Source: Lacisediminihabitans profunda (GTDB lineage: Bacteria > Actinomycetota > Actinomycetes > Actinomycetales > Microbacteriaceae). From it: a stretch of DNA of 64,000 nt. The notes under the pieces are model-generated. The model did no database searches. It saw only the letters and a program-made list of their open reading frames with translations, and was not told the DNA's origin. Positions 26,859-42,559 of the stretch are shown piece by piece. Positions within the stretch are counted from its first letter, which is position 1; every line of letters begins with the position of its first letter. The stretch spans positions 62,001 to 126,000 of the forward strand of contig NZ_VRMG01000011.1 in the NCBI RefSeq assembly GCF_008040105.1, written 5' to 3'. The translations under genes and the position numbers were made by a program.

Positions 26859-28331
26859 CTACTCGGCGACGCCGATGTACTCCGCGGACGCTCCCGAGAG
26901 CGCGGCCCGCAGCGCGGTCCCGAGCTGCGCGTCGACGTTCGTCCAGTACTGGATCGCGCGCTCCCGGATCTCCGCCGACGTCACGCCGCCGACGGCTCCC
27001 GTGATGGTGTCGAGGAATCGGCCCTTCGCCGCGTCATCGAACACGTCACGGTAGAGCGTGCCGGCCTGCCCGAAGTCGCTGTCCTCGGAGTGCAGGGTGG
27101 CGGCGGAGCGCACGAGGTCCCCGTCACTCTCCCAGCTTCCCTCGGCAGCGGCCGCGGCATCCGCCACCGCACCGCCGAACGAGTTCGGCGCGTAGACGGG
27201 AGACGAGGCGGGCTTGAAGCCGTGACGCCCCGCGCCGTCCTGGGTGTAGCTGTTCACCGGCGCGATCGGCGCGTTGACCGGGATCTCGTTGTAGTTGGTG
27301 CCGACCCGGTAGCGCTGGGCGTCCGGGTAGGAGAACACGCGTGCCAGAAGCATCTTGTCCGGGCTCACCGCGATGCCGGGCACCGTGTTCGCCGGGGAGA
27401 ATGCCGCCTGCTCGATCTGCGCGAAGAAGTTCTCCGGATTGCGGTCGAGTGTGTGGGTGCCCACCTTGATGAGCGGGTAGTCCGCCTTCGGCCACACCTT
27501 CGTGAGGTCGAAGGGGTTGAACCGGTAGGTCTTCGCGTCCTCGTACGGCATCACCTGCACGTGGACATCCCACGACGGGAAGTCGCCGGACTCGATCGCG
27601 TTGTGCAGGTCGCGGCGGTAGTGGTCCGCGTCGGCTCCGGCGATGAGCTCGGCCTCCGCGCCGCCGATCTCGACGTTGCCCTGGTTGGAGGTGAAGTGGT
27701 ACTTCACCCAGAAGCGCTCGCCCTCGGCATTGATCCACTGGTAGGTGTGCGAGCCGAAGCCGGGCATTTCGCGCCAGGAGCGCGGCAGGCCGCGGTCGCC
27801 CATGAGGTAGGTGACCTGGTGGGCGGATTCCGGAGACAGCGTCCAGAAGTCCCACTGCATGTTTGGGTCGCGCAGTCCGGAACCCGGGAGGCGCTTCTGC
27901 GAATGGATGAAGTCGGGGAACTTGATGCCGTCGCGGATGAAGAACACCGGCGTGTTGTTTCCGACGATGTCGTAGTTGCCCTCGGTGGTGTAGAACTTCA
28001 CCGAGAAGCCGCGCACGTCGCGCCAGGTGTCCGGGCTGCCCTGCTCGCCGGCGACGCTCGAGAAGCGCTGCAGCGTCTCGGTGGTGGTCCCCGGCTGGAA
28101 GACGGCGGCGCGGGTGAAGCGCGACACGTCCTCGGTCACCACGAAGGTGCCGAACGCCCCGCCGCCCTTGGCGTGCACGATCCGCTCCGGGATGCGTTCG
28201 CGGTTGAACTGCGCCAGCTTCTCGACGAGATACCGGTCGTGCAGCACCGCGGCGCCGTCGGCCCCGACGGTGAGCGAATGCTCGTCGCTCGCTACCGGGG
28301 TTCCGGTCTGGGATGTGGTGGGTTCCGTCAC
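26859..28331 (-). CDS. katA: Monofunctional haem catalase
   Basis: 490 residues, the size of clade 3 small-subunit catalases. Catalytic His53 in [12 protein letters not shown], the distal pocket asparagine in [13 protein letters not shown] (121-134), and the haem-ligand Tyr335 in [14 protein letters not shown] are present. It dismutates H2O2 in the cytoplasm. It lies 10 bases after the fur-family gene in the same direction, the classical regulator-catalase operon. Confidence 0.95.
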
Positions 28332-28341
28332 GATGTCTCCT

Positions 28342-28773
28342 TCATTTCTTGCGGTCGTTGGTTTGCTGGCAGGAGGCGCAGAGGCCCCAGAAAGTCACTT
28401 CGGCGGTGGTGATGATGTACCCGCTCGCGTCGTTCGGTGCGAGGCACGGCGCCGATCCGTGCACGCAGTCGACGTCGGCGACCGCCCCACAACCGGTGCA
28501 GACGATGTGGTGGTGATTGTCGCCGATGCGCCGCTCATACAGCGCCGGGGATCGTGCGGGCTCGATGCGGCGCACGAGCCCGGCCGCCGTGAGGTCGGCC
28601 AGCACGTTGTGCACCGACTGCACGGACATGTCGGGGCGCTCGGAGCGCACCGCGTGGCAGAGCGTCTCGGCGTCGGAGTGGGGCAACCGATCGAGCGCCG
28701 CGAGAACCGCGAGCCGACCGGGGGTGACCCGAAGCCCCTGCCCATGGAGCTGAGATTCGATGGGCGTGGTCAC
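28342..28773 (-). CDS. furA: Fur-family regulator, CatR/FurA-like
   Basis: 143 residues from GTG 28773. The N-terminal winged helix ([58 protein letters not shown]) and the [16 protein letters not shown] dimerisation/zinc site are clear, with a second CxxC (CASC) near the C terminus. Position just before katA indicates a peroxide-sensing repressor of catalase, as for CatR or mycobacterial FurA. A haem- or iron-dependent mode cannot be told from sequence. Confidence 0.88.
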
Positions 28774-28789
28774 CGCTCCACTCTGCCAG

Positions 28790-28812
28790 TTATCGTGAAC
28801 TATTCATAATTA
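28790..28812 (-). promoter_or_regulatory. AT-rich promoter/operator region of fur-katA
   Basis: An isolated AT-rich block (TTATCGTGAACTATTCATAA) starts 17 bases upstream of the fur start codon. It includes TGAA/TTCA half-sites and, on the minus strand, the -10-like TATGAA and GATAAC. It resembles AT-rich operators of peroxide-responsive Fur proteins, but symmetry is incomplete. Confidence 0.4.
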
Positions 28813-28820
28813 GGCGAGGG

Positions 28821-30125
28821 TCAGGCGGACGCGGGTTCCGTCTCCGTGGGGAGCGTACGCATCCCGAGCAGCGGCGAGAACACCACGAAGGAGGTGCCGG
28901 CGATCGAGCCGGCGAACGCGATCCAGAGTGTGGGGACGATGCCGATCCATCCGCCCAGGGCGCCGCCCACGAGACTCGCGATCGGCATCACGCCCCAGAC
29001 GACGCAGCGGATCGATGCGTTCATGCGCCCGAGCAGCCGCGGCGGGCAGAGCCGCTGGCGCAGCGTCACCTGCGTGATGTTGTAGACCAGCACGAGGAAG
29101 GACTGGAGGAACTGCGCGACGATGAGCACGGGCAGCGCCGCGCTGGGAACCACGGCCGCCAACGGGAGGGCGCCGATCAGCAGCGCGCTCGCGATCGCGG
29201 ACAGCGGGATGACCGTGCCCTCGCCGACGAGCCGGGCGAGGTGCGGCGTGGCCAACGCCCCGAGCAGGCCACCGACAGCACCCACCGACAGAATGAGTCC
29301 GAGCGCGCCGGGGCCGAGTCCGAGGGTGCGCAGCAGTAGCAGCGGGAAGAGCACGAAGGCGAGGGCGGAGAAGAAGTTGAATGCCGCGGTGCTGCCGACG
29401 ATCCGACGGATCAGCGGCTGGCCTGCCACGAACCGGACCCCCTCCGCGATCTCGCGGCCCAGCCCCAGGCGATCGGCCGGATCCGCGCGCACCTCGTTGT
29501 CGCGGATCCGGGCGAGCGCGGCCGCCGAGATGAAGAACGAGATCGCGTCCGCGAGCAGGAGCAGCGGCGCCGAAATCACCGTGAGCAGGGCGCCGGCGAG
29601 ACCCGGCCCGCCGATCCGCGCCACTTCGAAGCTCGCCTCGAGCTTCGAGTTGGCGTCGGCGACCTGTCTCGACTCGACCAGGATGGGGATGTAGCTCTGG
29701 TACGAGACGTCGAAGAAGACCGTGGCCGTGCCGACCACCGCGCCCACGATCACGAGCTGCCAGATCTGCAGCACTCCCAGCCACCACATCAGCGGGATCG
29801 CGGCGAGCGCGACCGCCCGCACCAGGTCGGCGACGATCATCACGCGGCGCTTGAGCATCCTGTCCACCCACGCCCCGGCCGGCAGCCCGACGAGGAGGAA
29901 GGCCGCGGTGTCTGCCGCGTTCAGGACGCCCAGTTGCCAGGCCTCGGCGTGCAGCACGAGCACGGCGAGCACGGGAATGGCGAGTTGGCTGAACTGAGAG
30001 CCGAACTGGCTGATGGTCTCCGCGCCCCACAGCCAGCGGAATCCCGGGTGCCTGAACACCGACGCCGGCCTCGACGCGGCGTCCGCGTTGGCGCTCACGC
30101 TAGCCGGCCACGATCTGCCGGGCAC
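28821..30125 (-). CDS. MFS transporter, EntS/MFS_3-like
   Basis: 434 residues if GTG 30125 is used; GTG 30098 is an alternative directly after the spoIIM stop. Twelve hydrophobic helices, with GVLNAADTAAFLLVGLPAGAWVDRMLKRRVMIVADLVRA as the conserved loop 2-3 motif of the MFS_3 group (enterobactin and macrolide exporters). The substrate is unknown. It is tail-to-head with spoIIM and ends 47 bases before the fur start region, so it could be a stress-linked efflux pump. The start is uncertain. Confidence 0.8.
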   Translation of the reverse strand: MPGRSWPASVSANADAASRPASVFRHPGFRWLWGAETISQFGSQFSQLAIPVLAVLVLHAEAWQLGVLNAADTAAFLLVGLPAGAWVDRMLKRRVMIVADLVRAVALAAIPLMWWLGVLQIWQLVIVGAVVGTATVFFDVSYQSYIPILVESRQVADANSKLEASFEVARIGGPGLAGALLTVISAPLLLLADAISFFISAAALARIRDNEVRADPADRLGLGREIAEGVRFVAGQPLIRRIVGSTAAFNFFSALAFVLFPLLLLRTLGLGPGALGLILSVGAVGGLLGALATPHLARLVGEGTVIPLSAIASALLIGALPLAAVVPSAALPVLIVAQFLQSFLVLVYNITQVTLRQRLCPPRLLGRMNASIRCVVWGVMPIASLVGGALGGWIGIVPTLWIAFAGSIAGTSFVVFSPLLGMRTLPTETEPASA

Positions 30126-31095
30126 CCGCCTCGAACTCGCCCAGGTCTCCCGTCTCGCCCGCCCGGTGCGCGCGCCGCCCGACCACCCACTGGTAGAAGA
30201 GGAACGCGCCGAGGGCGACCGAACCGATCCCGATCTTGATCACCCACGGCCAGTCCTGACGCGTGACGAACCCCTCGATGATCCCGGAGACGAGGAGGGA
30301 GAGGATGAGGCCGATCACGACCGTGAACAGGGCCCGGCCCTCCTCCGCCAGCGCCCTGGCCCGCGTGCGGGCGCCCGGCGCGATCCACGCCCAGAAGATG
30401 GCCATCCCCGCTGCTCCCGCGGTGAAGATCGAGTAGAGCTCGAGCTGGCCGTGCGGGGCGATGTAGAGGAAGAAGATGTCGAGCCGGTCGTGCGAGGCCA
30501 TGAGCGCGCCGGACAGCCCGATGTTCTGGGCGTTCATGAACAGCAGGTACGGCGCGTAGACACCGGTGATGCCGAACGCTATGCACTGCGCGGCCAGCCA
30601 GGCGTTGTTGGTCCAGACCTGGCCGGTGAAGGACGACGGCGAGTGGTTGGAGTAGTAGTTGACGAAGTCCTGCTCCACGAACTGCTTGCGGAACTCCGCC
30701 GTGCCGAAGTGCGCGATCACCCCGGGCGTGTTGAGCGCCCACAGGGCGTAGAGCGTGGCGACGAGCGCGGTACCGAACGCGATGGCGAGGCAGAGCCAGC
30801 GGATGCGGTAGAGCGCCGCGGGCAGCTGGGCGGTGAAGAACTGGGGTACCTGGCTCACCACGTTGCGACCGGCACCGGTGAAGCGCAGGCGAGCGCGCGA
30901 GAGCCCCACGGAGAGCCGGTCGCCCTGGATCGTCTGGCCGGCCGTGGTCTTGATCGCGGAGAGTTGGCTCGATCCGGCCTGGTAGCGCTCGATCAGCCGG
31001 TCGGCCTCCGCACCGCTGAAGCGACGCTTCTTGCCGAGCCGGGCAAGCTCGTCCCACTCATCGCTGTGCGCGGCGGAATAGGCGTCGAGATCCAT
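30100..31095 (-). CDS. SpoIIM-family (stage II sporulation protein M) membrane protein
   Basis: 331 residues from ATG 31095. A cytoplasmic N terminus with DEWDELARLGKKRRFSGAEADRLIERYQ precedes five to six transmembrane helices with HGQLELYSIFTAGAAGM, the conserved SpoIIM core (HGxxE). In non-sporulating actinobacteria SpoIIM proteins accompany MoxR/DUF58/RDD genes. The start codon faces that of the RDD gene across a 17-base gap with no Shine-Dalgarno sequence. Confidence 0.85.
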   Translation of the reverse strand: MDLDAYSAAHSDEWDELARLGKKRRFSGAEADRLIERYQAGSSQLSAIKTTAGQTIQGDRLSVGLSRARLRFTGAGRNVVSQVPQFFTAQLPAALYRIRWLCLAIAFGTALVATLYALWALNTPGVIAHFGTAEFRKQFVEQDFVNYYSNHSPSSFTGQVWTNNAWLAAQCIAFGITGVYAPYLLFMNAQNIGLSGALMASHDRLDIFFLYIAPHGQLELYSIFTAGAAGMAIFWAWIAPGARTRARALAEEGRALFTVVIGLILSLLVSGIIEGFVTRQDWPWVIKIGIGSVALGAFLFYQWVVGRRAHRAGETGDLGEFEAGARQIVAG

Positions 31096-31112
31096 CTGCT
31101 TAAATACTAGAC
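31096..31112. promoter_or_regulatory. Putative shared bidirectional leaderless promoter
   Basis: The whole gap between the divergent spoIIM and RDD start codons is 17 bases: TGCTTAAATACTAGAC-like AT-rich DNA. It has TAGTAT on the minus strand and TTAAAT/AATACT on the plus strand. The first bases of the two ATG codons are 18 bp apart. Neither gene has room for a ribosome site, so one A/T-rich hexamer may act as -10 element in both directions. Confidence 0.45.
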
Positions 31113-31982
31113 ATGGCATTCGAGCCCCGCTCCGCTTTTGTGTCGTCGGCGGTTCCGACGACGGCGGACGACGATGCCGAGCTCATGACCGGCGAGGCCG
31201 TCGCGCTCGATCTGCGTCCGACCAGTTTCGTGCTGAGGGCCGCCGGAGCGCTCATCGACTTCGTCGTGTATCTGGGCACCTGGCTGCTCATCATCCTCGC
31301 CCTCTCCTCGCCCCTGTTCGGCAGAATGCTCGATGACGCGAGCGGGGCCGCGGCCGCCGTCGCCGCCCTCGTCTTCTGCCTCATCGTGCTGCCGACGGCG
31401 GTGGAGACGGTGACCCAGGGCAAGTCCCTCGGCCGACTCGCGATCGGGGCCCGGATCGTGCGAGACGACGGAGGCTCGATCGCGTTCCGGCATGCCTTCA
31501 TCCGGGCGCTCACGGGCGTGCTCGAGATCTTCTTCACCCTCGGCGGGGTCGCCGCTATGGTGGCCATGCTCAACGGCCGGTCGAAGCGGCTCGGGGACCT
31601 TCTCGCCGGCACCTACAGCCAGAACGAACGGGTCTCCGGACCCACCCCGGCGGTTTTCGGCATGCCGACGGAGCTTCTCGACTGGTCGAAGACCGCGGAT
31701 GTGGCGCGGCTGCCAGACGGACTGGCGCGGCGGATCGCGCAGTTCCTCGGCCAGGCCGCCCGACTGTCGCCCGAGGCGCGGGCCAGGCTGGCCCGCGACC
31801 TCGCCAACGAGGCATCGGCCTTCGTGTCACCGCTGCCGCCCGTGCATCCCGAGCTGTTCCTCGCCGGAGTCTCCGTGATCCGTCGCGAGCGGGAGTCCCG
31901 CGCCCTTGAGCTCGAACGCGAGCGCCTCGAGCATCTCGCTCCGGTTCTTCGCGCGCTCCCGCACGACTTCCCCGACCGCTGA
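31113..31982 (+). CDS. RDD-family membrane protein
   Basis: 289 residues from ATG 31113. The RDD domain (residues 25-165) has DLRPTSFVLRAAGALIDFVVY, with R-x-x-G-A-x-I-D in helix 1, and QGKSLGRLAIGARIVRDDGG. Two to three helices in it are followed by a 115-residue helical cytoplasmic tail. RDD proteins commonly pair with SpoIIM and MoxR genes. A downstream ATG at 31185 is possible but would cut conserved residues little. Function unknown. Confidence 0.85.
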   Translation: MAFEPRSAFVSSAVPTTADDDAELMTGEAVALDLRPTSFVLRAAGALIDFVVYLGTWLLIILALSSPLFGRMLDDASGAAAAVAALVFCLIVLPTAVETVTQGKSLGRLAIGARIVRDDGGSIAFRHAFIRALTGVLEIFFTLGGVAAMVAMLNGRSKRLGDLLAGTYSQNERVSGPTPAVFGMPTELLDWSKTADVARLPDGLARRIAQFLGQAARLSPEARARLARDLANEASAFVSPLPPVHPELFLAGVSVIRRERESRALELERERLEHLAPVLRALPHDFPDR

Positions 31983-32028
31983 GAGCGCGTCGCCCCGCGT
32001 CGCCCCCGCCCGCGCGCCCCGCCCGCCC

Positions 32029-32060
32029 GCACGCCCCGCCCGCCGCACGCCCCGCCCGCC
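32029..32060. repeat. Two tandem copies of a 16-bp C-rich unit
   Basis: GCACGCCCCGCCCGCC occurs at 32029-32044 and again at 32045-32060; a partial third unit follows. Confidence 0.75.
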
Positions 32061-32078
32061 GCATCCGCCCCACAGCTT

Positions 32079-32160
32079 CCGAAATCCATGCATTTCTTGC
32101 CCGGCCCCGGTGTGTCTGCGACGACACGCCGAGTCGCGCCGAGAAATGCATGGATTTCGG
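32079..32160. repeat. 82-bp palindromic element, copy 1
   Basis: Perfect 19-bp terminal inverted repeats: CCGAAATCCATGCATTTCT (32079-32097) and its reverse complement (32142-32160). Inside are 11-base internal segments, then an 8-bp stem (GGTGTGTC / GACACGCC, one G-T pair) around loop TGCGAC. A second copy is at 38666-38747, 81 of 82 bases identical. Each arm holds a near-palindromic 16-mer GAAAT-S-CATG-S-ATTTC. Confidence 0.85.
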
Positions 32161-32286
32161 AAAGGGAAAGGGAAAGGGAAAGGGAAAGGGAAAGGGAAGG
32201 GGAAGGGGAAAGAGAAGGGGAAGGGGAAGGGGAAGGGGAAAGAGAAGGGGAAGGGGAAGGGGAAAGGGAAAGGGAAAGGGAGGAGG
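32159..32286 (+). repeat. 128-nt homopurine GGGAAA/GGGGAA tract
   Basis: Uninterrupted purines, built from GGGAAA hexamers at the ends and GGGGAA and AAAGAGAA units in the middle. It starts at the right border of the palindrome. Mirror symmetry would allow triplex (H-DNA) formation. Confidence 0.85.
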
Positions 32287-32303
32287 CCGCCGGGCAGGGC
32301 CGC

Positions 32304-33779
32304 TCAGCGCCAGTAGGGGTCGCTGAGCAGACGGGTGCCCCAGTGGCGCCGGATCGTGGCCAACTCCTCCGGCACGACGGTGGCAACCCGGCTCTTCGAC
32401 TCGAAGTGGAAGAGCTCAGCATGAGGAGTCCAGACGATGCTCCGGCCGGTGGAGCGCACCTTGAGCGAGAGGTCCACGTCGTTGTAGTTGCCGGCGTAGA
32501 GCGGGGAGAACCCGCCCACCTCCCAGAAGGTGTCCGCGGAGATCATGGCGCACGCCGCGGTGACGCCCGAGACCTCCCGGTCGACGCCGAGGGAGCCCAG
32601 CGCATCGTCCCGCCCGGATTCCCAGCCGAACGCGATGTGACCCGCCCAGCTGTCACGATAAAGATGCCCGCCGTGCTGAACGGTTCCGTCCTCGAAGTAG
32701 AGCATGGTGCCCACCAGACCGATGCCCGGCTGCTGGGCGAGGCCGAGCATCACCTCGATCCAGTCGGCGCTGATGAGCTCCACATCATCGTTGACCAGAA
32801 CGAGATAGTCCCCGCGGGCGTGAACCGCACCGCGGTTCATCTTGCCCGAGAAGTTGAAAGGGCCCGACCAGCGCACCAAGCGAAGTCGTTCCCCGGCAAC
32901 CTCGACGAGACTGTCGATCACGGCCTGGGGTGTCTCGTCGTCGGCGACGACGACTATCTCGATCGGGGCATACGTCGTGCGCTCGAGCATGCCTCGTACG
33001 GCATCAACGACGAGCACGCTCTCGGCGCCTCGAATCGTGGCTCGTCCGCCGCGGGTGGGGATGACGATCGACACGAGCGGGGCGCCATCGATCGGATAGC
33101 GCAGCCTGAGCGCCGACCCGGCAAGCGACACCTCGGCGGTGACGCCGCGCGCGGCAACCGCGTCCGCCGACGCACTCCGGTGGGCCTCGGTCAGACTGCC
33201 GATCGCGCTAACGGAGCGGCTGAGCACCTCGGGGATCGCGAGCACTCGCCTCTCGTCCGCCCCCAACCGCAGTGCGATGTCGTAGGGATGCGCGCCGTCA
33301 AGGCCGGGGCGGAAGCCGCCGACCGACCGCAGCCGGTCGGACCGGAAGCCGCGCACGCCGCCGAGGTAGTCCTGCGAGAGCAGCCGGATCGGCGAGGGTG
33401 CCGGCCGACGACGCACCTCGCCGTCCGCGAGCTGCGTGTCGCCGTAGAACAGGTCGATGTCGAACCGGCCGACGGTTCGCCCGAGCGTCGCGTTCGCCTC
33501 ACGCGTGAGCTCGTTGCCGGCATCGAGCCACACTATCCAGTCGCTCGGCGTCTGGGCCAGAAGCGTGTTCAGCAGGCCCGAGCCGTCCCCGTCCGGTGCC
33601 GCGATCAGGCGCGTCGGCGAATCCGGAAGGCTCAACTGGTCGAGCATACCGGCGTCGACGATGCCCACGACCTCCTCGAATTGCGACGACTGCCCAAGCG
33701 CCGAGCGCAGCGCATTCCGCACGGAGGAGATCGGATGCCCGGCTCCGAAGACCCACAGGGTGCGGCTGGCACCGCTCAT
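32304..33779 (-). CDS. Family 2 glycosyltransferase with two GT-A-like halves
   Basis: 491 residues. Residues 1-230 look like a divergent GT-A domain (WIVWLDAGNELTREA, DIDLFYGDTQLADGE). Residues 240-491 are a clear GT2 domain: PLVSIVIPTRGG, VVVADDE, KMNRGAVHARGDYLVLVNDDVELIS (the DxD equivalent is NDD), and GGFSPLYAGNYNDVDLSLKVRSTGRSIVWTPHAELFHFESKSR. It resembles O-antigen rhamnosyltransferases. It overlaps the short coiled-coil gene upstream by four bases and is likely part of a surface glycan pathway. Confidence 0.8.
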   Translation of the reverse strand: MSGASRTLWVFGAGHPISSVRNALRSALGQSSQFEEVVGIVDAGMLDQLSLPDSPTRLIAAPDGDGSGLLNTLLAQTPSDWIVWLDAGNELTREANATLGRTVGRFDIDLFYGDTQLADGEVRRRPAPSPIRLLSQDYLGGVRGFRSDRLRSVGGFRPGLDGAHPYDIALRLGADERRVLAIPEVLSRSVSAIGSLTEAHRSASADAVAARGVTAEVSLAGSALRLRYPIDGAPLVSIVIPTRGGRATIRGAESVLVVDAVRGMLERTTYAPIEIVVVADDETPQAVIDSLVEVAGERLRLVRWSGPFNFSGKMNRGAVHARGDYLVLVNDDVELISADWIEVMLGLAQQPGIGLVGTMLYFEDGTVQHGGHLYRDSWAGHIAFGWESGRDDALGSLGVDREVSGVTAACAMISADTFWEVGGFSPLYAGNYNDVDLSLKVRSTGRSIVWTPHAELFHFESKSRVATVVPEELATIRRHWGTRLLSDPYWR

Positions 33780-34063
33780 CGGCGGCGAAGCCGTCGTCCG
33801 GCCCGCTGGAGCACCCGTACCGGAATGGTCACCACGCGACCGACGCGCCAGGGCAGGGAGCGCCGAAGCTCGAGCAGTTGCTGCTCGGCGCTGAGCTGTT
33901 CCGTGGGCGTGAGCTCCCGAGTGGCGGCGACCTGGGCGAGTCGGGCCTCGAGGCCCTTCACTCGATCGATGAGCTCGAGCTGCTGCTCCGGCGAGAGCGA
34001 ACGGGTCGGCGCCGTCGCCTCATCCTCACGCCCGGCCCATGGCGCGCTCCCCACATCGGTCAC
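33776..34063 (-). CDS. Small protein with coiled coil and basic amphipathic tail
   Basis: 95 residues from GTG 34063. Residues 25-70 form a charged helix (LSPEQQLELIDRVKGLEARLAQVAATRELTPTEQLSAEQQLLELRRSL), followed by PWRVGRVVTIPVRVLQRAGRRLRRR, a motif that often forms the C terminus of glycosyltransferases. Coupled to the GT2 gene by an ATGA overlap, it may be a membrane-anchoring partner of that enzyme. No known domain. Confidence 0.55.
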   Translation of the reverse strand: MTDVGSAPWAGREDEATAPTRSLSPEQQLELIDRVKGLEARLAQVAATRELTPTEQLSAEQQLLELRRSLPWRVGRVVTIPVRVLQRAGRRLRRR

Positions 34064-34149
34064 GACAACCCGCTTCTTCCTTCGTTCACTCTCCGCCCTA
34101 CTGTAACGCCCCGGTTCGGAGGCGCATCGCGGGCCGTCGATAATGGGGT

Positions 34150-35097
34150 GTGACCGAAACCCCTCCGACCGGCGCGACCAGGGTCATCGCCGTCGTTCCC
34201 ACCTTTCGGCCAGACGAGGCGCTTCTCGACGGCTTGCGGGCGCTCGCGCCGCAGGTCGATTCGATCATCGTCGTCGACGACGGCAGTCCCGCCGAGTCGC
34301 GCGCCCTGCTCGAGAGAGTGGAGGACGCCGGATTCGAAGTGCAGCGCAGCGCGCGCAATGCCGGCATCGCCGCGGCGATCAACGCCGGAATCAGGACCGC
34401 GCTCGAACGCGGAGCCCACTTCGTGCTCACCATCGACCAGGACACGGTGCTACCGGCCCACTACGTCTCCGATTGCCTCACGGCGTTCCGCATCGCGAGT
34501 CCGGCCACCCGTCTCGGTATCGTCTGCACCGACCGGGTCAACGGCCAACCCTCCATTCCGGAGCACTACACGAAAGAGGGCCTCGGCCTCGTTCGCGAGG
34601 CGATCCAGTCCGGATTCCTCATCAGCGCCGAGTGTCTGGCCGAGTGCGGCCTGTTCGACGAGAGACTCTTCATCGATTGCGTGGACACCGAGTACTGCCT
34701 CCGGATCGCACGTCACGGCTACCGCATCGCCGTCGCGCCCGGCACCGACATCACCCATTCGCTCGGCGAACAGGCTCCCCTCCGACCGTTCGGCTTCCCG
34801 GTGCGAAACCCGGACACCGGCGAGATCGAGACCTACGAATATCACGGTCCGACCCGGCGATACTTCATCACCCGCAACAACGTGGACCTGTTCCTCCGCT
34901 ACGCGAGGGTTCGGCCTCGCTGGGTCGTCTCGGCGGTCAAGCGCGAGATCGTTCCCACCTTGACGACGATCGTCTCCGGCCCGCGGCGCGGAAGACAACT
35001 GCTGGCCACCGTGGTCGGGGCCACGCACGGGCTCGTGCGCCGGCGCGGGCCGCTCACTCCGACCCTGCGGCGCGTGCTCTCGGGGTCTCGCCCCTAA
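34150..35097 (+). CDS. RfbF-like rhamnosyltransferase (GT2)
   Basis: 315 residues from GTG 34150. A GT2 fold of the RfbF-like class: VVPTFRPDEALLDGLRAL, IIVVDDGSP, NAGIAAAINAGIRTALERGAHFVLTIDQDTVLP (DQD motif) and DERLFIDCVDTEYCLRIARHGYRI. Such enzymes transfer rhamnose or related sugars onto lipid-linked glycans. It is convergent with the next gene (four-base overlap of stops). A GATAAT just upstream of the start suggests leaderless expression. Confidence 0.85.
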   Translation: MTETPPTGATRVIAVVPTFRPDEALLDGLRALAPQVDSIIVVDDGSPAESRALLERVEDAGFEVQRSARNAGIAAAINAGIRTALERGAHFVLTIDQDTVLPAHYVSDCLTAFRIASPATRLGIVCTDRVNGQPSIPEHYTKEGLGLVREAIQSGFLISAECLAECGLFDERLFIDCVDTEYCLRIARHGYRIAVAPGTDITHSLGEQAPLRPFGFPVRNPDTGEIETYEYHGPTRRYFITRNNVDLFLRYARVRPRWVVSAVKREIVPTLTTIVSGPRRGRQLLATVVGATHGLVRRRGPLTPTLRRVLSGSRP

Positions 35098-36119
35098 CCG
35101 CCGCCGCGGGCATCCCGCGTCTTCTCGTGCTCGAGGGAGTGCGCCCCGATGGCGCGATGATCGTCGAGCCTCACGCTCAGGGCGCGCCGATAGTTGCCCC
35201 ACTTGGCCAGGTGATAGAACGGATTGACCACGAGCCAACGCAGCTTGGCGCCGAGCGGATAGCGGTCGTCGCGCACAATGCGCACCGAATCCCGCAGGAT
35301 GTCGTAGCCGGCCCTGAGCACCTGCTTGCCCGTGCCATACCTGGCCGCGTTCTCATCGAGACGACGCAGCGCGAGGGTCTCGTCGAAGACCCGCTTGCCG
35401 AACTCGCGCAGGGTGAGGTCGTTGGAATGCTCGACACTCCCCCCTGGCGCATAGGCCTTGCGGTATCCCGCAGCGATCAGGTCCCGGCCGAAGGCCATGT
35501 CCTCCGAGTAGCGGAGGTCCTGGTACGGGATGACGTCGAGCAGGAAGTCGCGCCTCGTCGCCGAGTTGACGTCGGAGTAGAACGCGAGAAGGTCCATCTC
35601 CTGGGCCGTCGGCTCCGTCTCACCCCGCTGATAGACGGTCGGGGCCGAATCCGGGCCGAACCTGGCGAACACCGCGTCGATCTCGTACTTCTGCAGGGGG
35701 AAACAGTCGGCGCGGGGAATCTGCTTGCCGAGCACGGCCACGGCATCCAGGCCGTCCGCGCGGAGGGGGTCGGTCAGCTCTCGCAACCAGCCGGTCGTGA
35801 GCGGAACCGCATCCTGGGTGAGAAAGACCAGGTTCCTTCCCCACGCGAGCCGGGCGGCGAGGTTGCGGGTCTTGCCGTGGCCGAACTCGGAATTGGGGAT
35901 GACGTGCAGCCGCACTCCCGCGTGCGAGCCCACGATCTCGAGCGTGCGATCCGTTGAGCCCGAGTCGATGACGAGAACCTCGACGGTGCCATCGAAGTCC
36001 TGAGCGTCGATCATCCGCAGGATCCGGTCGAGATACTTCTCGCCATTGAGGGTCGGGATGATCACGGTCACGTCAACGGACGTGGTCTCCCGCGAATCGT
36101 CTCCGGTCGACTGGGTCAC
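35094..36119 (-). CDS. Family 2 glycosyltransferase, rhamnosyltransferase-like
   Basis: 341 residues. GT2 signatures VTVIIPTLNGEKYLDRILRMI, VLVIDSGSTDRTLEI, NSEFGHGKTRNLAARLAWGRNLVFLTQDAVP (QDA as the metal-site region) and YSEDMAFGRDLIAAGYRKAYAPGGSVEHSNDLT. The FGHGKTRN block is typical of rhamnosyltransferases of the RfbN type. The start follows the WsaF-like gene by one base, so it is co-transcribed with it and the WecE-like transaminase gene. Confidence 0.85.
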   Translation of the reverse strand: MTQSTGDDSRETTSVDVTVIIPTLNGEKYLDRILRMIDAQDFDGTVEVLVIDSGSTDRTLEIVGSHAGVRLHVIPNSEFGHGKTRNLAARLAWGRNLVFLTQDAVPLTTGWLRELTDPLRADGLDAVAVLGKQIPRADCFPLQKYEIDAVFARFGPDSAPTVYQRGETEPTAQEMDLLAFYSDVNSATRRDFLLDVIPYQDLRYSEDMAFGRDLIAAGYRKAYAPGGSVEHSNDLTLREFGKRVFDETLALRRLDENAARYGTGKQVLRAGYDILRDSVRIVRDDRYPLGAKLRWLVVNPFYHLAKWGNYRRALSVRLDDHRAIGAHSLEHEKTRDARGGG

Positions 36120-37361
36120 CTAGAGCGCCGTTCGCATGGCCTTTTCGAAGACCGCGATGAACGTCTCCGCCGGGTCTGACCAGCCGGCCGAATCGACGGA
36201 GTGGGCGATCGCGGCGCCGTGTTCGACGGCATCCGGCCGATCGACGATCGCAATGAGGCGTTCGGCTATCGCCTTCGGCGACATCGGCACGTACTCGATG
36301 TACGGGCTGTCGAAGACGCCGCGCGTGTTCGGGGCGTCGTTCACGACAGGAACGACCCCGCTCGCCATGACCTCCATCGGCAGCAGCGACATGTTGGTGA
36401 GGGAGAGCACGAGGCCGGCGGCGGACCGGTTGTAGATGGTGTCGAGCCTGGCGATGTCGACCGCTCCGTGGTTGACGTGCGGGAAAGGCACGTCATAGCC
36501 GGACATGTCCCAGCCGATGAGGTTGATGGTGATGTCCGGCCGGAGACGGTTGAGTTCGCGCAGCGCGAGAAGGCCGAATTCGGTCGCGCGCCGGGGAGTC
36601 GGCGGCCGGGCATAGAACACCACCTCGTTGCGCCGCTCGGTGTTCGAGTAGGTGTACCGGCTCGTGTCGACGGCGAAGTCGTATGCGTCGCACGACATCC
36701 CGTACTCGCTGCGGAGCTTCTCGCCGAGCCACTGGCCGGCGGCGATGCCGTGGAATCCGAGCCGGTACGAGTTCTCGGCCAGGACGTAGTCGCTGCCTTC
36801 GGCGAAGAAATACGGTTCGAAGTCCTGCGCGAAGTAGAAGCGCTTGGCCTCCCCCTCGTAGCGGTACGCGGCGTAGGTGGCCTCCCAGTCCGACGCGAAG
36901 ATCGCGTCGAAGCCAGGAGCGAAACCCTCGGCCGGGTCGTACAGCCTCATGTCGCCGACGAGATCGGGATAGCCGGTCATCCCGTGCATCATGGCCCGGA
37001 TCTCGTCGACATTGACCACCGGATACTTGCCGGGAGAGTAGAGGTAAACGGTCAGCTCGTGTCCGGCCTTCTCGAGAAAACTCATGAACCGGAAGGCGTT
37101 CTGATGCCCACCGCTGGTGCGGCTCGGGGGGCTGATCACCCACGCGATGCGGTATTTGCCGTCGCGACCCTCCATCGGAACCGCGTTGAAGGCGCGCGGT
37201 TTGGTCCAGTCCACGGCGATGACGTCCTCCGTGTAGACGGTGGAGAGGGGAGTCACGACGAACGGGCTGAAGCGGTTCGACAGGTACTTCGCGCTCCGCC
37301 AGGCGGTCGATCGAATGCCCTCTGTCTTCAGAATCGAGAAGGCCTTGCCCACTGCACTCAT
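36120..37361 (-). CDS. WsaF-like glycosyltransferase
   Basis: 413 residues from ATG 37361; a longer TTG start at 37385 is possible. N-terminal RIAWVISPPSRTSGGHQNAFRFMSFLEKAGHEL and C-terminal VFYARPPTPRRATEFGLLALRELNRLRPDITINLIGWD followed by GLVLSLTNMSLLPMEVMASGVVPVVNDAPNT correspond to the two Rossmann domains of WsaF-type GT-B rhamnosyltransferases. The enzyme would extend a surface glycan. It forms an operon with GT2 and the WecE-like gene. Confidence 0.8.
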   Translation of the reverse strand: MSAVGKAFSILKTEGIRSTAWRSAKYLSNRFSPFVVTPLSTVYTEDVIAVDWTKPRAFNAVPMEGRDGKYRIAWVISPPSRTSGGHQNAFRFMSFLEKAGHELTVYLYSPGKYPVVNVDEIRAMMHGMTGYPDLVGDMRLYDPAEGFAPGFDAIFASDWEATYAAYRYEGEAKRFYFAQDFEPYFFAEGSDYVLAENSYRLGFHGIAAGQWLGEKLRSEYGMSCDAYDFAVDTSRYTYSNTERRNEVVFYARPPTPRRATEFGLLALRELNRLRPDITINLIGWDMSGYDVPFPHVNHGAVDIARLDTIYNRSAAGLVLSLTNMSLLPMEVMASGVVPVVNDAPNTRGVFDSPYIEYVPMSPKAIAERLIAIVDRPDAVEHGAAIAHSVDSAGWSDPAETFIAVFEKAMRTAL

Positions 37362-37402
37362 GCCAGAACGTCCGCTTCGGTGCAATCACTCACAGATCGA
37401 CC

Positions 37403-38560
37403 TTACAGAAGTTGGAAGGCCCTCACCGCGTCGATGACCCGACTCACCTGATCCTCCGACATCCCTGGCCAGAGCGGAAGGCGCACGATTCGCCGGGAGA
37501 AGTCCTCGCTGACGTCGAGCGAACCGAGGGTGCGACCGTAGCGGAGGCCCGCCGGACTCGAGTCGAGCGGCACGTAGTGGAAGCTCGCGATCACCCCGGC
37601 GAGCCGCAAACTCGCGATGAGATCGGTCTGGGATGCCCAGGTCGGCATGACCAGGTAGAAGAGGTGCGCGGCGTGGATGCCGAGGGGCGGGCTCATCAGT
37701 CTCGCGCCCAGCGCATCCGCCCACTCGTCCAATTCGAGGGCGTACCGATCCCAGACGCTCACTCGTTGGTGCTGGATCTCGCCGATTTCGCTGAGCTGGG
37801 CATCGAGCACGGCGGCGCTGATCTCGCTCATCAGATAGCTCGACCCCCAGTCCACCCAGCGATACTTGTCGACTTGGCCCCGAAGGTACTGGGACCGATT
37901 GGTGCCCTTCTCCCGCATGATCTCGGCCCGTTCCACGAGCGCGGGATCGTTGATGAGCAAGGCCCCGCCCTCCCCGCAGTGCACGTTCTTGGTGTCGTGG
38001 AAGCTCTGCGCCGCAAGCACACCGACACTGCCGAGGGTGTGCGCGCCCGCCCGAACGCCCAAGCCGTGTGCGTTGTCCTCGATTATCGGCAGCCCGTGCT
38101 CCCTGGCGATGGACAACATCGACTCGATGTCGACCGGCACCCCGCCGTAGTGCATCACCGAGATCGCCCGGGTCCTCGGCCCGACGGCCTCACTCGCCTG
38201 ATTGGCGTCGATGTTGCCGGTGGACGGATCGATGTCCACGAAGACGCAGGTGGCTCCCGTGCGTGCCACCGCGTCGGCCGCGGACGGAAAGGTGAAACTC
38301 GGAAGGATCACCTCGTCGCCCCGCCCGATCCCGAGCAGCGAACTGGCCATCTCGAGGGAGTGTGTCCCGGACGGGGTGAGCAACACGTGCCCGGCGGTGG
38401 TGAGCGTGACGATCTTTTCGCTGGCGCGACGCGTGAACGGGCCGTCGCCGTGTGAGTGGTCGGAGGCGAGCACCCGGGCGACGTTGGCGAGTTCGTCCTC
38501 GCTGCGATACGGACGCGAGAACGGCACGATGTCGGACGCGACCGCAACCCCGTCACCCAT
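37403..38560 (-). CDS. wecE: WecE/RffA-type dTDP-4-amino-4,6-dideoxygalactose transaminase
   Basis: 385 residues from ATG 38560 (GGGGGTGG upstream). A DegT/DnrJ/EryC1 fold with PLP-lysine Lys191 in QSFHDTKNVHCGEGGALL and the WecE hallmarks SHGDGPFTRRASE, REKGTNRSQYLRGQVDKYRWVDWGSSYLMSE and FHYVPLDSSPAG, close to E. coli WecE. It would convert dTDP-4-keto-6-deoxyglucose to dTDP-Fuc4N. The matching glycosyltransferases lie directly downstream. The dTDP-sugar precursors are made elsewhere. Confidence 0.88.
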   Translation of the reverse strand: MGDGVAVASDIVPFSRPYRSEDELANVARVLASDHSHGDGPFTRRASEKIVTLTTAGHVLLTPSGTHSLEMASSLLGIGRGDEVILPSFTFPSAADAVARTGATCVFVDIDPSTGNIDANQASEAVGPRTRAISVMHYGGVPVDIESMLSIAREHGLPIIEDNAHGLGVRAGAHTLGSVGVLAAQSFHDTKNVHCGEGGALLINDPALVERAEIMREKGTNRSQYLRGQVDKYRWVDWGSSYLMSEISAAVLDAQLSEIGEIQHQRVSVWDRYALELDEWADALGARLMSPPLGIHAAHLFYLVMPTWASQTDLIASLRLAGVIASFHYVPLDSSPAGLRYGRTLGSLDVSEDFSRRIVRLPLWPGMSEDQVSRVIDAVRAFQLL

Positions 38561-38647
38561 GACCACCCCCGCGACCAGCACCCATTGCTGAACTTCGCTC
38601 AGTCTAGGTTCGACCCGCCGGTCCGGGATGTCGCGGCGCGCCCCAGT

Positions 38648-38782
38648 CTCGGCGCCCCACCGCATCCGAAATCCATGCATTTCTTGCCCGGCCCCGGCGT
38701 GTCTGCGACGACACGCCGAGTCGCGCCGAGAAATGCATGGATTTCGGAAGGGGAAGGAGGGGAAGGAGGCGGCGGCGCCGAG
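38648..38782. repeat. Outer inverted repeat enclosing palindrome copy 2
   Basis: CTCGGCGCC at 38648-38656 pairs perfectly with GGCGCCGAG at 38774-38782, enclosing the 82-bp element and its purine tail. On the ahcY (minus) transcript this gives a large extended stem 17 bases after the stop. Confidence 0.6.
38666..38747. repeat. 82-bp palindromic element, copy 2
   Basis: Identical to copy 1 at 32079-32160 except for one base; here the inner stem GGCGTGTC / GACACGCC is a perfect 8-bp match. Same orientation, and again followed on the right by purines (38746-38769). It lies between ahcY (stop at 38799) and the wecE start. Confidence 0.85.
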
Positions 38783-38798
38783 GGCGGGCCGGCGTCGA

Positions 38799-40262
<1,464 letters not shown>

Positions 40263-40274
40263 GCTCCCAGATTA
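40263..40274 (-). promoter_or_regulatory. -10 box and leaderless start of ahcY
   Basis: On the minus strand TAATCT (40274 to 40269) is followed by six bases and the ATG. A GGGAG sits too close to the start to serve as a ribosome site. Confidence 0.5.
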
Positions 40275-40339
40275 CGCGATCGGGCGATCCCGGCCTGTGC
40301 GGCGCCCCCGACCCGCGCCGCTCCCGCGACCCACGCCGG

Positions 40340-41773
40340 CTACTCGCGGATGAGCGCGAGCACGGCATCCCGCACCCGTGCCATCTCCTCGGGGGTCGCC
40401 GCCTCCACGTTGAGGCGCAGCAGCGGCTCGGTGTTGGACGGACGCACGTTGAACCACCAGAACGGCTCGTCGGCGGACACGATCCCCGTCACGGTGAGGC
40501 CGTCGAGCTCGTCGAACTCGGCGATGCCGTTGTACGCGTCCACGATGCGGCTGTAGGCAGACGGCACGTCCGTGACGGTGGAGTTGACCTCGCCGCTCGC
40601 GGAGTACGGGGTGTACTGCTTCGACAGCGCGGAGAGCGGCCCATCGTGCGACCCGAACTCGGCCAGGATGTGCATCGCGGCGAGCATGCCGTTGTCCGCT
40701 CCCCAGAAGTCGCGGAAGTAGTAGTGCGCGGAGTGCTCCCCGCCGAAGATCGCGCCGGTCTTGGCCATCTCATCCTTGATCAGCGAGTGGCCGACCCTCG
40801 TGCGCACCGGGATCGCGCCGGCGGCTTCGATGGTCTCCTCGACGATCCGCGAGGTGATGAGGTTGTGGATCACGAAGATGTCGCCGTCGGGCTGCAGGGC
40901 GCGCACCCGGGTGATCTCGCGCAGCGCGACGATGGCGGCCACCGCGGAGGGCGTGACGGCGTTGCCCTTCTCGTCCACGACGAAGCAGCGGTCGGCGTCC
41001 CCGTCGAAGGCGAGCCCGAGGTCGGCGCCGTGCTCGATGACGGCCTTCTGCAGGTCCACGATGTTCGCCGGCTCGAGGGGGTTGGCCTCGTGGTTGGGGA
41101 AGGAGCCGTCGAGTTCGAAGTAGAGCGGGATGATCTCGATCGGCAGTTTCGCGAGCCCCGCGGCCTCGCCGAGCACAGCGGGAACGGTGAGTCCGCCCAT
41201 GCCGTTTCCTGCGTCGACCACGATGCGGATGGGCCGGATGCCGGACAGGTCGACGAGGGACCGCAGGTAGGCGGCGTAGTCGGCCAGCACGTCGACCGTG
41301 CGGAAGGTGCCGGTCTCGGCGACCTCGCCGACGCCGGTGGACAGGTACTCCTGCGCGCGGTCGCGGATCGAGCGGAGCCCGGTGTCGAAGCTGATGCCCC
41401 TGGCGCCGGCCCGGGAGAGCTTGATGCCGTTGTAGGTGGCCGGGTTGTGGCTCGCCGTGAACATCGCGGCCGGGGCGTCGAAGTGTCCGGAGGCGAAGTA
41501 GGACTCGTCGGTGGAGCAGAGGCCGATCGAGAGCACGTGGGCGCCTCGGGCCTGAGCTCCGCGCGCGAAGGCGGCGGCGAACTCCGGCGACGAATCGCGC
41601 ATGTCGTGGCCGACCACGACATCCGTTCCCGCCGCCTCCACCTCGTCGGCGAAGGCGGCACCGAGCGCCTGGACCACCTCTTCCGTCAACTGGGAGCCGA
41701 CGAGGCCCCGCACGTCGTAGGCCTTGATGAATGGTGTGAGATCGATAGCGCCCGAAGAGCTGGCAGAGTTCAT
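40340..41773 (-). CDS. manB: Phosphomannomutase/phosphoglucomutase
   Basis: 477 residues from ATG 41773. The phosphoserine loop TASHNPATYNG, metal-binding DGDADRC, sugar-binding GEHSAHYYF and phosphate-binding RPSNTEP are all intact, as in bacterial PMM/PGM. It interconverts mannose-6-P and mannose-1-P, feeding GDP-mannose. It lies 10 bases after the DUF3499 gene in the same direction, an arrangement matching Rv3257c-Rv3258c of M. tuberculosis. Confidence 0.95.
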   Translation of the reverse strand: MNSASSSGAIDLTPFIKAYDVRGLVGSQLTEEVVQALGAAFADEVEAAGTDVVVGHDMRDSSPEFAAAFARGAQARGAHVLSIGLCSTDESYFASGHFDAPAAMFTASHNPATYNGIKLSRAGARGISFDTGLRSIRDRAQEYLSTGVGEVAETGTFRTVDVLADYAAYLRSLVDLSGIRPIRIVVDAGNGMGGLTVPAVLGEAAGLAKLPIEIIPLYFELDGSFPNHEANPLEPANIVDLQKAVIEHGADLGLAFDGDADRCFVVDEKGNAVTPSAVAAIVALREITRVRALQPDGDIFVIHNLITSRIVEETIEAAGAIPVRTRVGHSLIKDEMAKTGAIFGGEHSAHYYFRDFWGADNGMLAAMHILAEFGSHDGPLSALSKQYTPYSASGEVNSTVTDVPSAYSRIVDAYNGIAEFDELDGLTVTGIVSADEPFWWFNVRPSNTEPLLRLNVEAATPEEMARVRDAVLALIRE

Positions 41774-41783
41774 GCCGACAACG

Positions 41784-42008
41784 CTACAGGGCGGAATGCT
41801 CCGTGCGACCGAGCGAGACGTGCCGCACGACCTGCCAGCCCTGGGGCACGGACAGCCGCTCGGCATGTCTCGAGCAGAGGTCGTAGCTGTGCGGCTCGGC
41901 CTGGCGACTGAGCGGGCCGAGTACCGCCATCGAATCGGCGTAGACATAGGTGAGAGTGGAGACGGCGTCGTTGGTGCACGCGACTTTGCTACAGGGTCTG
42001 CCATCCAT
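41784..42008 (-). CDS. DUF3499 protein
   Basis: 74 residues from ATG 42008 (GTGGAG upstream). Cysteines in GRPCSKVACTNDAVSTLTYVYADSMAVLGPL and YDLCSRHAERLSVPQGWQVVRH form the conserved metal-ligand pattern (C-x4-C...C-x2-H) of this actinobacterial family. Always found beside phosphomannomutase; the function is unknown. A longer frame to 42062 exists but lacks a ribosome site. Confidence 0.85.
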   Translation of the reverse strand: MDGRPCSKVACTNDAVSTLTYVYADSMAVLGPLSRQAEPHSYDLCSRHAERLSVPQGWQVVRHVSLGRTEHSAL

Positions 42009-42085
42009 TTGGCTCCACTCTAACCACGCGCCGGCCGTCTCGGCGCGAGCCTCGCCGCGCACATCGGGCGGTCCGCTGCGGCGGA

Positions 42086-42097
42086 TAGAATCGAGGG
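42086..42097 (+). promoter_or_regulatory. -10 box and leaderless start of the metallopeptidase-like gene
   Basis: TAGAAT (42086-42091), six bases, ATG at 42098. The intervening CGAGGG ends against the ATG, too close for a ribosome site. Confidence 0.55.
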
Positions 42098-42535
42098 ATG
42101 GCTCGCCCCCGAAGTGCAGGCGCCTCGGCGAGACCGGGCTGGCGCGATCGCCACGGCCGGGGGATGCGTTCGGCCGTCACCGGGCCGCAGCTGCCGCTGC
42201 TGCACTCCCGCGCCGACCTCTTCGACATGACGGTCGCGTCGACCGCGGAATACCTCAAGGACATCTGGCCGGACGAGCTTGCCAATGTGAGCTTCGAGGT
42301 GGCCGGCCTGCCAAGCGCGGTCGGGGACAGCGGCGGAATCGACCGGTGGCACGTCATCGCCCCGGAGCGCCGCGTGATCCTCTACCGGCTTCCGATCGAG
42401 CGCCTCGCGCACCTGCACCACCACGACGACCTTCATCGCCGCATGCTCATCGAGAGTTGCGTGTTCCGAGCGGTGGCCGAACTGCTCGGCAAGGACCCCT
42501 GGGATCTGGCTCCCGAGCGTTTCCGGCACCTGTAA
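42098..42535 (+). CDS. Metallopeptidase-family protein (Rv3259-like) with altered active site
   Basis: 145 residues. PQLPLLHSRADLFDMTVASTAEYLKDIWPDELANVSFEVAGLP and ERRVILYRLPIERLAHL match the Rv3259-type family annotated as metallopeptidases. In that family a HExxH-like helix is expected where this protein has DLHRRMLIESCVFRAVAELLG; no HExxH is visible, so it may be inactive or a different function. It diverges from DUF3499 exactly as in Mycobacterium. Confidence 0.7.
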   Translation: MARPRSAGASARPGWRDRHGRGMRSAVTGPQLPLLHSRADLFDMTVASTAEYLKDIWPDELANVSFEVAGLPSAVGDSGGIDRWHVIAPERRVILYRLPIERLAHLHHHDDLHRRMLIESCVFRAVAELLGKDPWDLAPERFRHL

Positions 42536-42559
42536 CGGCCGCCGCTCCGCCGACGGGAA

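Follow-up and report, generated by a model that had tools for sequence, protein, structure and literature searches.

The palindromes described here are probably one part of a REPIN-like system, whose partner gene encodes a nuclease of the Vsr/EDxHD type instead of a tyrosine transposase. The partnership of the palindromes with the nuclease gene is well supported: the gene is enclosed by two palindromes, relatives of these are dispersed in the genome, each full-length paralog has one type of end, the ends are conserved around a variable interior, and the ends of a sister family keep a helical phase. From these observations we infer that the element is cleaved, copied and moved. The same arrangement of gene and palindromes recurs across many actinobacteria and hints at small mobile DNA of an undescribed kind. 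The stretch analysed (hereafter the window, 64,000 nucleotides, G000:C12:62001-126000) belongs to the draft genome of Lacisediminihabitans profunda (G000, 171 contigs).

The window carries two copies of the palindrome. The original prediction described them as 82-bp copies at 32079-32160 and 38666-38747, and we found both again with this placement and length, each with a perfect 19-bp terminal inverted repeat and with a single base difference between them (T at 32111, C at 38698). The natural unit, from TTCC to GGAA, extends slightly beyond this, to 85-86 bp. Copy 1 (86 bp, 32077..32162, no strand assigned) runs from TTCC to GGAA. Its left end, TTCCGAAATCCATGCA (32077..32092, + strand), is common to the 45 copies of the genome and to the palindromes enclosing the nuclease gene, and its right end (32147..32162, - strand) is the left end inverted. 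Two inner boxes lie between the ends, one reverse (32108..32116, - strand, CGGTGTGTC, consensus CGGCGTGTC) and one forward (32123..32131, + strand, GACACGCCG). Copy 2 (86 bp, ATCC...GGAA, 38664..38749, no strand assigned) has its reverse box at 38695..38703 (- strand) and its forward box at 38710..38718 (+ strand). A 17-mer of the end had eight matches in the window at up to three mismatches, against 0.01 expected from dinucleotide shuffles; these eight are four exact sites, each matched again in reverse with three mismatches. The pair was also considered as a composite transposon with 6.5 kb of genes, which we rejected because the downstream neighbour of copy 2 is placed identically, as judged by eye, in four relatives free of the element (L164, L165, L166 and L173).

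When TTCCGAAATCCATGCA was compared with the whole of G000, we obtained 90 half sites with at most one mismatch in 16, none with exactly two, and only control-level numbers at three. The 90 half sites pair, at 69 or 70 bp, into 45 inverted doublets, each 85 or 86 bp long and together spread over 14 contigs (family 1). Identity to the majority base averages 99.1% in the ends and 59.7% in the interior (33 copies of 86 bp). The length is fixed at 85-86 bp. Family 1 thus preserves its ends and its length, and its middle can vary freely. No target-site duplication was visible by eye in 64 flanks.

The interior contains two 9-bp boxes, GACACGCCG, each of which occupies one of two registers to within about a base: offset 25 when forward and offset 31 when reverse, counted from the box's own end of the element. 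The copies of G000 comprise 17 forward-forward, 9 reverse-reverse and 19 mixed cases, and the 19 paired copies of the related genomes G004 and G010 comprise 11, 7 and 1, respectively. Because the boxes of the mixed class are direct repeats, they are unable to pair with each other, and a requirement for RNA or hairpin formation in the interior is therefore disfavoured; the outer ends do pair. The inner stem reported earlier is present in the window copies and does not extend to the family, since base pairing is not conserved inside the element (direct boxes in 19 of 45 own and one of 19 related copies). Nor do we see in the change from a G-C to a G-T pair, once taken as a hint of selection on folding, any such sign. 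The two box registers had suggested a dimer site of 15 bp spaced at 21 bp, which was not borne out, its second half-site being unconserved. WhiA is at most a speculative candidate for binding the boxes.

Comparison of the genes neighbouring box loci yielded one odd protein, with an AbiEi_4-like head and a DUF559/MTES_1575 nuclease tail. In G000 an intact gene of this type lies between two family 1 palindromes (G000:C106:361194-362093, L087/L270). The stretch from palindrome to palindrome in the units read is about 0.9-1.3 kb and is filled by one open reading frame of about 290 amino acids. Among the matches listed, box elements stand on both sides of the gene at seven loci (L197, L198, L200, L201, L207, L213 and L217), and L203 has weaker ones on both sides (boxes with 2 and 3 mismatches). 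DUF559 domains with any head occur in 107 of 150 Microbacteriaceae genomes.

The enclosure of the gene was evaluated with a blind flank test that is independent of the boxes and requires the gene to be flanked on both sides by palindromes whose arms match. Its strict and relaxed versions replaced an earlier look for flanking repeats at 34 nuclease genes, in which chance repeats of at least 12 bp occurred in 16 and 15 of 200 control windows. Under the relaxed rule, matched flanks were found for 12 of the 20 genes taken regardless of their flanks, for 10 of the 14 genes from element-bearing genomes, and for one of the four genes picked for a nearby box element. Random placements gave 10 matches in 1500 (own unit left out), and controls 30 kb away on the same contigs gave none in 20 stretches and none in 1210 placements. 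The strict rule retained 7/20, 6/14 and 0/4 genes in these three sets, against 3 of 4000 control placements, all three of them at the own unit; within the window, 3000 placements gave none. The box-picked genes fail the strict rule and mostly the relaxed one because their arms are imperfect. Even under the relaxed rule, 8 of the 20 and 4 of the 14 genes had no matched pair. Outside the window's family, four of 35 loci passed the strict rule (L243, L250, L258 and L261, with approximate gene limits), and the other 31 had no matched pair under it. Many flanking palindromes lack the GACACGCCG interior; hence, enclosure of the gene extends beyond the box class.

The N-terminal part of the protein is an AbiEi-like winged helix, and its C-terminal part is a DUF559/MTES_1575 (Vsr-like) nuclease domain. 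Both DUF559 and MTES_1575 are matched by all 24 aligned members, and AbiEi_4 by 15. The own protein exceeds the cut-off of DUF559, stays under that of MTES_1575 and narrowly misses that of AbiEi_4. E181, D208 and D241 are among the invariant positions, and E218 and D220 are conserved in at least 90% of the members; the own protein keeps all five, and E181, D208, E218 and D220 are its putative catalytic residues. By profile, the nuclease part matches 3hrl, which is endonuclease-like (1.2e-13), and 3r3p, deposited as a "mobile intron protein" (5.7e-6). We take PDB 3r3p to be I-Bth0305I. The MTES_1575 domain is named as a Vsr-type nuclease in PMC3710099, and a Caulobacter DUF559 protein is described as Vsr-like and tied to a DNA damage response in PMC12907096. 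Of the four matches in a plasmid collection that cover at least 80% of the protein, two bear the name AbiEi. One of the plasmid-collection records, from Actinomyces oris (L286), has a 40-bp direct repeat pair around its copy of the gene, and three from Tsukamurella have no repeat pair or a weak one. Relatives of the nuclease were also seen on two faecal phage-collection contigs (MT837367.1 and MT839994.1; H13 and H14), with 99% and 83% query cover.

Four profile matches were found in G000, of which three are full-length. Each of the three lies between matched palindromes, and the ends differ from paralog to paralog: TTCCGAAATCCATGCA (family 1), CGTTTCTCCGGAGG (family 2) and TTGCAGGAGTTGTG (family 3). 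The truncated fourth (L269, G000:C117:794225-794668, profile positions 1-146) had no matched flanking palindromes. The ends of paralog 2, searched in G000 as a prediction, gave 101 half sites and none in the control. Those of paralog 3 gave 72 against 37 in the control, an excess of twofold only; many of these half sites are paired and clustered in arrays. G000 therefore holds two more dispersed families beside family 1. The one such prediction tried in another family of the phylum also held: the ends enclosing the gene of G237 gave 40 half sites against 3 in the control, many of them paired 26 bp apart and spread across many contigs.

The sister families show how the two ends of an element are placed relative to each other. 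In family 2 (spacings drawn from 100 of the 101 half sites), 39 of 40 end-to-end spacings were 66-67, 75-78, 87-88 or 98 bp, and the remaining one was 130 bp. The best period was 10.8 bp, and none of 20000 random sets was as regular; the regularity holds with only eight hand-picked, unlinked off-mode spacings. The ends are thus spaced in helical steps, as if they had to lie on one face of the duplex, and this suggests that a protein bridges them in double-stranded DNA. The 18 family 3 elements that we read measured 79-80 or 89-91 bp. Eight more family 3 pairs have the opposite arrangement at 110-173 bp, two of them adjoining the gene itself, and we take these as gaps between elements. Some family 3 copies form arrays (L302-L306, on G000:C85, C96, C161, C139 and C150) of about three near-identical copies some 180-270 bp apart. 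One locus is a mosaic of two families, with a family 3 palindrome (half sites at 461633 and 461710) between two family 1 palindromes (L104, G000:C150:461502-461898).

Similarity of proteins and similarity of ends were not significantly correlated in a Mantel test (178 of 2000 permutations as high; L204 and L200, whose core was not found, left out). The 13 of 369 protein pairs with at least 42% identity had a mean end score of 8.2 vs 5.7, with few loci contributing. Mapped on the protein tree, the box type, a loose label, required 8 changes vs about 12.5 in shuffles, of which 2/500 and 6/500 were as low for the two labels used (L204, L223 and L229 left out).

The distribution of family 1 ends within the genus is patchy, with several copies in three of 13 species. 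At up to two mismatches, there were 45/45 forward/reverse matches in G000, 12/10 in G004, 9/9 in G010, and 0-3 matches in all in the other ten species; one of these, L108 in G011, qualifies as a real element on its arms and boxes. When 84,980 species genomes, perhaps without records of the window's own genome, were scanned for exact copies of both arms, the only hits were two Microbacteriaceae metagenome-assembled genomes, RYN_99 and BP_157, whose sites are in the same places as in G004 and G010. The boxes are more widespread. The arrangement GACACGCCG-N18-CGGCGTGTC (at most one mismatch) was found in 32 of 150 Microbacteriaceae genomes and 23 of 85 genera, against one genome for the backwards control. 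At the loci read, these boxes are inside other, mostly matching terminal repeats, which differ between genera and even within one genome. At L177-L188 (G028) and L217 (G105), tandem copies of the end unit, e.g., CGCGGATCCGGA, follow one another every 19-21 bp or so outward from the element.

Comparison of related genomes gave indications of turnover. The site of the own gene unit, palindrome-gene-palindrome in G000, is a single collapsed palindrome in G004, and a second orthologous site has a collapsed palindrome in G004 and an intact one in G000. At both sites the collapsed palindromes have some arm sequence left and have lost the interior. Around common elements, alignments of G004 with G010 at five loci reach 93-96%, hence some elements have been inherited for long. 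Among the 990 pairs of G000 copies, the six most similar each lie within 7 kb and share an orientation; the window pair, 6.6 kb apart, ranks second. Ends with a mismatch are found in 12 of 45 copies in G000 vs 11 of 19 related copies (Fisher 0.024), as if the upkeep of the ends were weaker in G004 and G010 than in G000. Movement of the element was not observed among the relatives compared, which offered no clean empty site with a defined boundary. The one case of presence and absence between close relatives (L128 vs L118) involves 198 bp, which exceeds the element length, and its direction can be read either way.

These data can be combined in a more specific scheme, to which we give about as much credence as doubt. 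In such a class of bacterial mobile DNA no transposase would take part: a Vsr/EDxHD-type nuclease carrying an AbiEi-like winged helix would bind both ends on one face, cut between them and, by break repair, maintain as well as disperse tens of copies, with each paralog serving its own family, across Actinomycetota. The winged helix would bind as a dimer and keep the inverted ends together on the same face of the duplex. The predicted nuclease would then cut the unconserved middle, and repair would re-make or copy the element, so that the middle drifts or is exchanged between copies; the ends would be kept because they are the binding sites. A nearby copy or a collapsed remnant may be occasional by-products. 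For the placing of copies at new sites, templated break repair is our guess. The element would then either be a non-autonomous selfish repeat itself or serve as the target of one, the two window copies being a recent local duplicate.

The resemblance to REPIN-RAYT systems lies in the short dispersed intergenic palindromes, in the dedicated gene beside or between copies, and in the several families per genome, each with its own gene (three in G000). Two marks of such systems were found here: dispersed inverted pairs (45) and one paralog per repeat family (3/3). Pseudomonas fluorescens SBW25 has three repeat groups, each beside its own RAYT, according to PMC3116915. However, judging by the enclosed gene only, the partner in our units is a nuclease with an AbiEi winged helix and a Vsr-like domain and not a Y1 HUH tyrosine transposase; the GTAG/CGTC tag is absent from the ends of families 1, 2 and 3; and the ends of the sister family are spaced in helical turns. 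According to PMC3116915 and PMC3733652, REP-like repeats with a named partner have a Y1 tyrosine transposase, and for other REP families no partner is known. If our reading is true, a second, unrelated enzyme class would be tied one-to-one to dispersed palindromes, a nameless protein family would gain a function, and part of the intergenic repeat DNA would be explained. How a nuclease without strand-transfer chemistry spreads short DNA would then become testable, and some genes annotated as "AbiEi antitoxin" may be something else. No earlier report of the link between nuclease and palindrome was present among the matches listed, drawn from open-licence papers only, which is weak evidence of novelty; for the box sequence, the matches listed held no title on bacterial repeats.

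An alternative that we consider unlikely, albeit the most serious of those examined, is homing: the palindrome would be the cleavage and landing site, the nuclease gene would home into solitary palindromes by break repair, and the palindromes would spread otherwise. The sequence relation of the nuclease domain to 3r3p, and through it presumably to I-Bth0305I, suits this idea, and so does the locus where G004 has one collapsed palindrome in place of the gene unit. EDxHD/Vsr-like homing endonucleases can also have long targets, as I-Bth0305I dimerises on one of nearly 60 bp (PMC3943268). Yet, homing leaves unexplained why at least two of the own paralogs have some 40 or more dispersed copies, and why the most similar copies are close together and share an orientation. 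Unlike those endonucleases, the protein has a fused AbiEi-like winged helix, and two whole dispersed palindromes enclose its gene. No intron or intein was seen around the gene.

It is less probable still that the protein is an AbiEi-type winged-helix regulator and the palindromes its immobile regulatory or chromosome-organising sites. The AbiEi_4-like N-terminus, found in 15 of 24 members and shared with the AbiEi antitoxins of type IV toxin-antitoxin systems, would fit such an operator, the fixed length and the helical phasing of the sister family would suit a bridging protein, and the sites common to G004 and G010 in stretches of 93-96% identity include some that were long kept. However, the patchy occurrence in three of 13 species is against it, and it makes both the conserved nuclease domain and the second, downstream palindrome superfluous. 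The gene context, obtained with a simple gene finder, also speaks against it: 21 of the 45 G000 copies are between convergent genes, 20 between co-directional genes and only four between divergent ones, where promoters would be. The long gaps of the window have the opposite bias (9/19 divergent, 2/19 convergent). This shunning of divergent gaps is not general, since seven of the 19 copies in related species are in divergent gaps and there is no preference for gene 3' ends. The units also differ from AbiEi antitoxins in that a nuclease domain is fused to the winged helix and a single gene fills the stretch between the palindromes; the AbiEii nucleotidyltransferase toxin gene that would follow AbiEi was not met there in the units read. 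Aldo/keto reductases, a common family, were considered as a recurrent neighbour (seven loci) and rejected, their members being diverse.

That a Y1 or DDE transposase moves the palindromes, as it would an ordinary REP or MITE, with the nuclease gene as a passenger, seems very unlikely. Dispersed palindromes with conserved ends are typical of such elements (PMC3733652, PMC3116915), and in this respect the earlier suggestion of a REP-type or MITE-like unit was right in kind: there are 45 dispersed intergenic copies, and a gene enclosed by two. The element is no known REP, however. A passenger does not account for one nuclease paralog per end type, with three types in G000, nor for the enclosure of the same gene family in many genera and outside the window's family, and the ends were seen without the GTAG/CGTC tag. 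CGTC-tagged REPs, reported without a dedicated transposase in PMC3733652, are similarly dispersed palindromes without a known Y1 partner, but they have other end sequences and hosts, and here a partner gene was found.

We give even less weight to a structured RNA, which the original prediction had offered, or a bidirectional transcription terminator. In favour are the palindromic form and, with the simple gene finder, the position of 41 of the 45 G000 copies next to one gene 3' end or more. But positions 28000-43000 of the window gave no Rfam match, the unpairable boxes of 19 copies make a structured RNA improbable, the one-turn helical steps kept in the sister family across an unconserved interior suit duplex DNA, and the ends are absent from most species of the genus. 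Finally, the similarity and closeness of the window pair would have fitted a mere local duplication, the reading held in reserve in case only two copies existed anywhere, which is already refuted by 45 copies over 14 contigs.

Purine-rich DNA beside the elements is a separate feature. Homopurine DNA is indeed present to the right of each window copy, as first noted: 126 nt at copy 1 (32161..32286, + strand) and 22 nt at copy 2 (38748..38769, + strand), the first two bases being in each case the last two of the element. In G000, the 40 nt to the right were at least 80% purine in 19 of 45 copies, the 40 nt to the left at least 80% pyrimidine in 17, and both held for 10, against a baseline of 0.3% and 0.0% of the 40-mers of the window. 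Related species have such tails in 2 of 19 copies on each side. Many tails are tandem repeats whose unit varies from copy to copy. Contrary to what had been proposed, the tail is not part of the unit, since its repeat unit and length vary, it occurs on either side and it is rare in related species; it is a flank feature of G000, perhaps produced by slippage beside the ends. The purine tract at 32161-32286 of the window is of the (GGGAAA)n/(GGGGAA)n type and lies between convergent genes.
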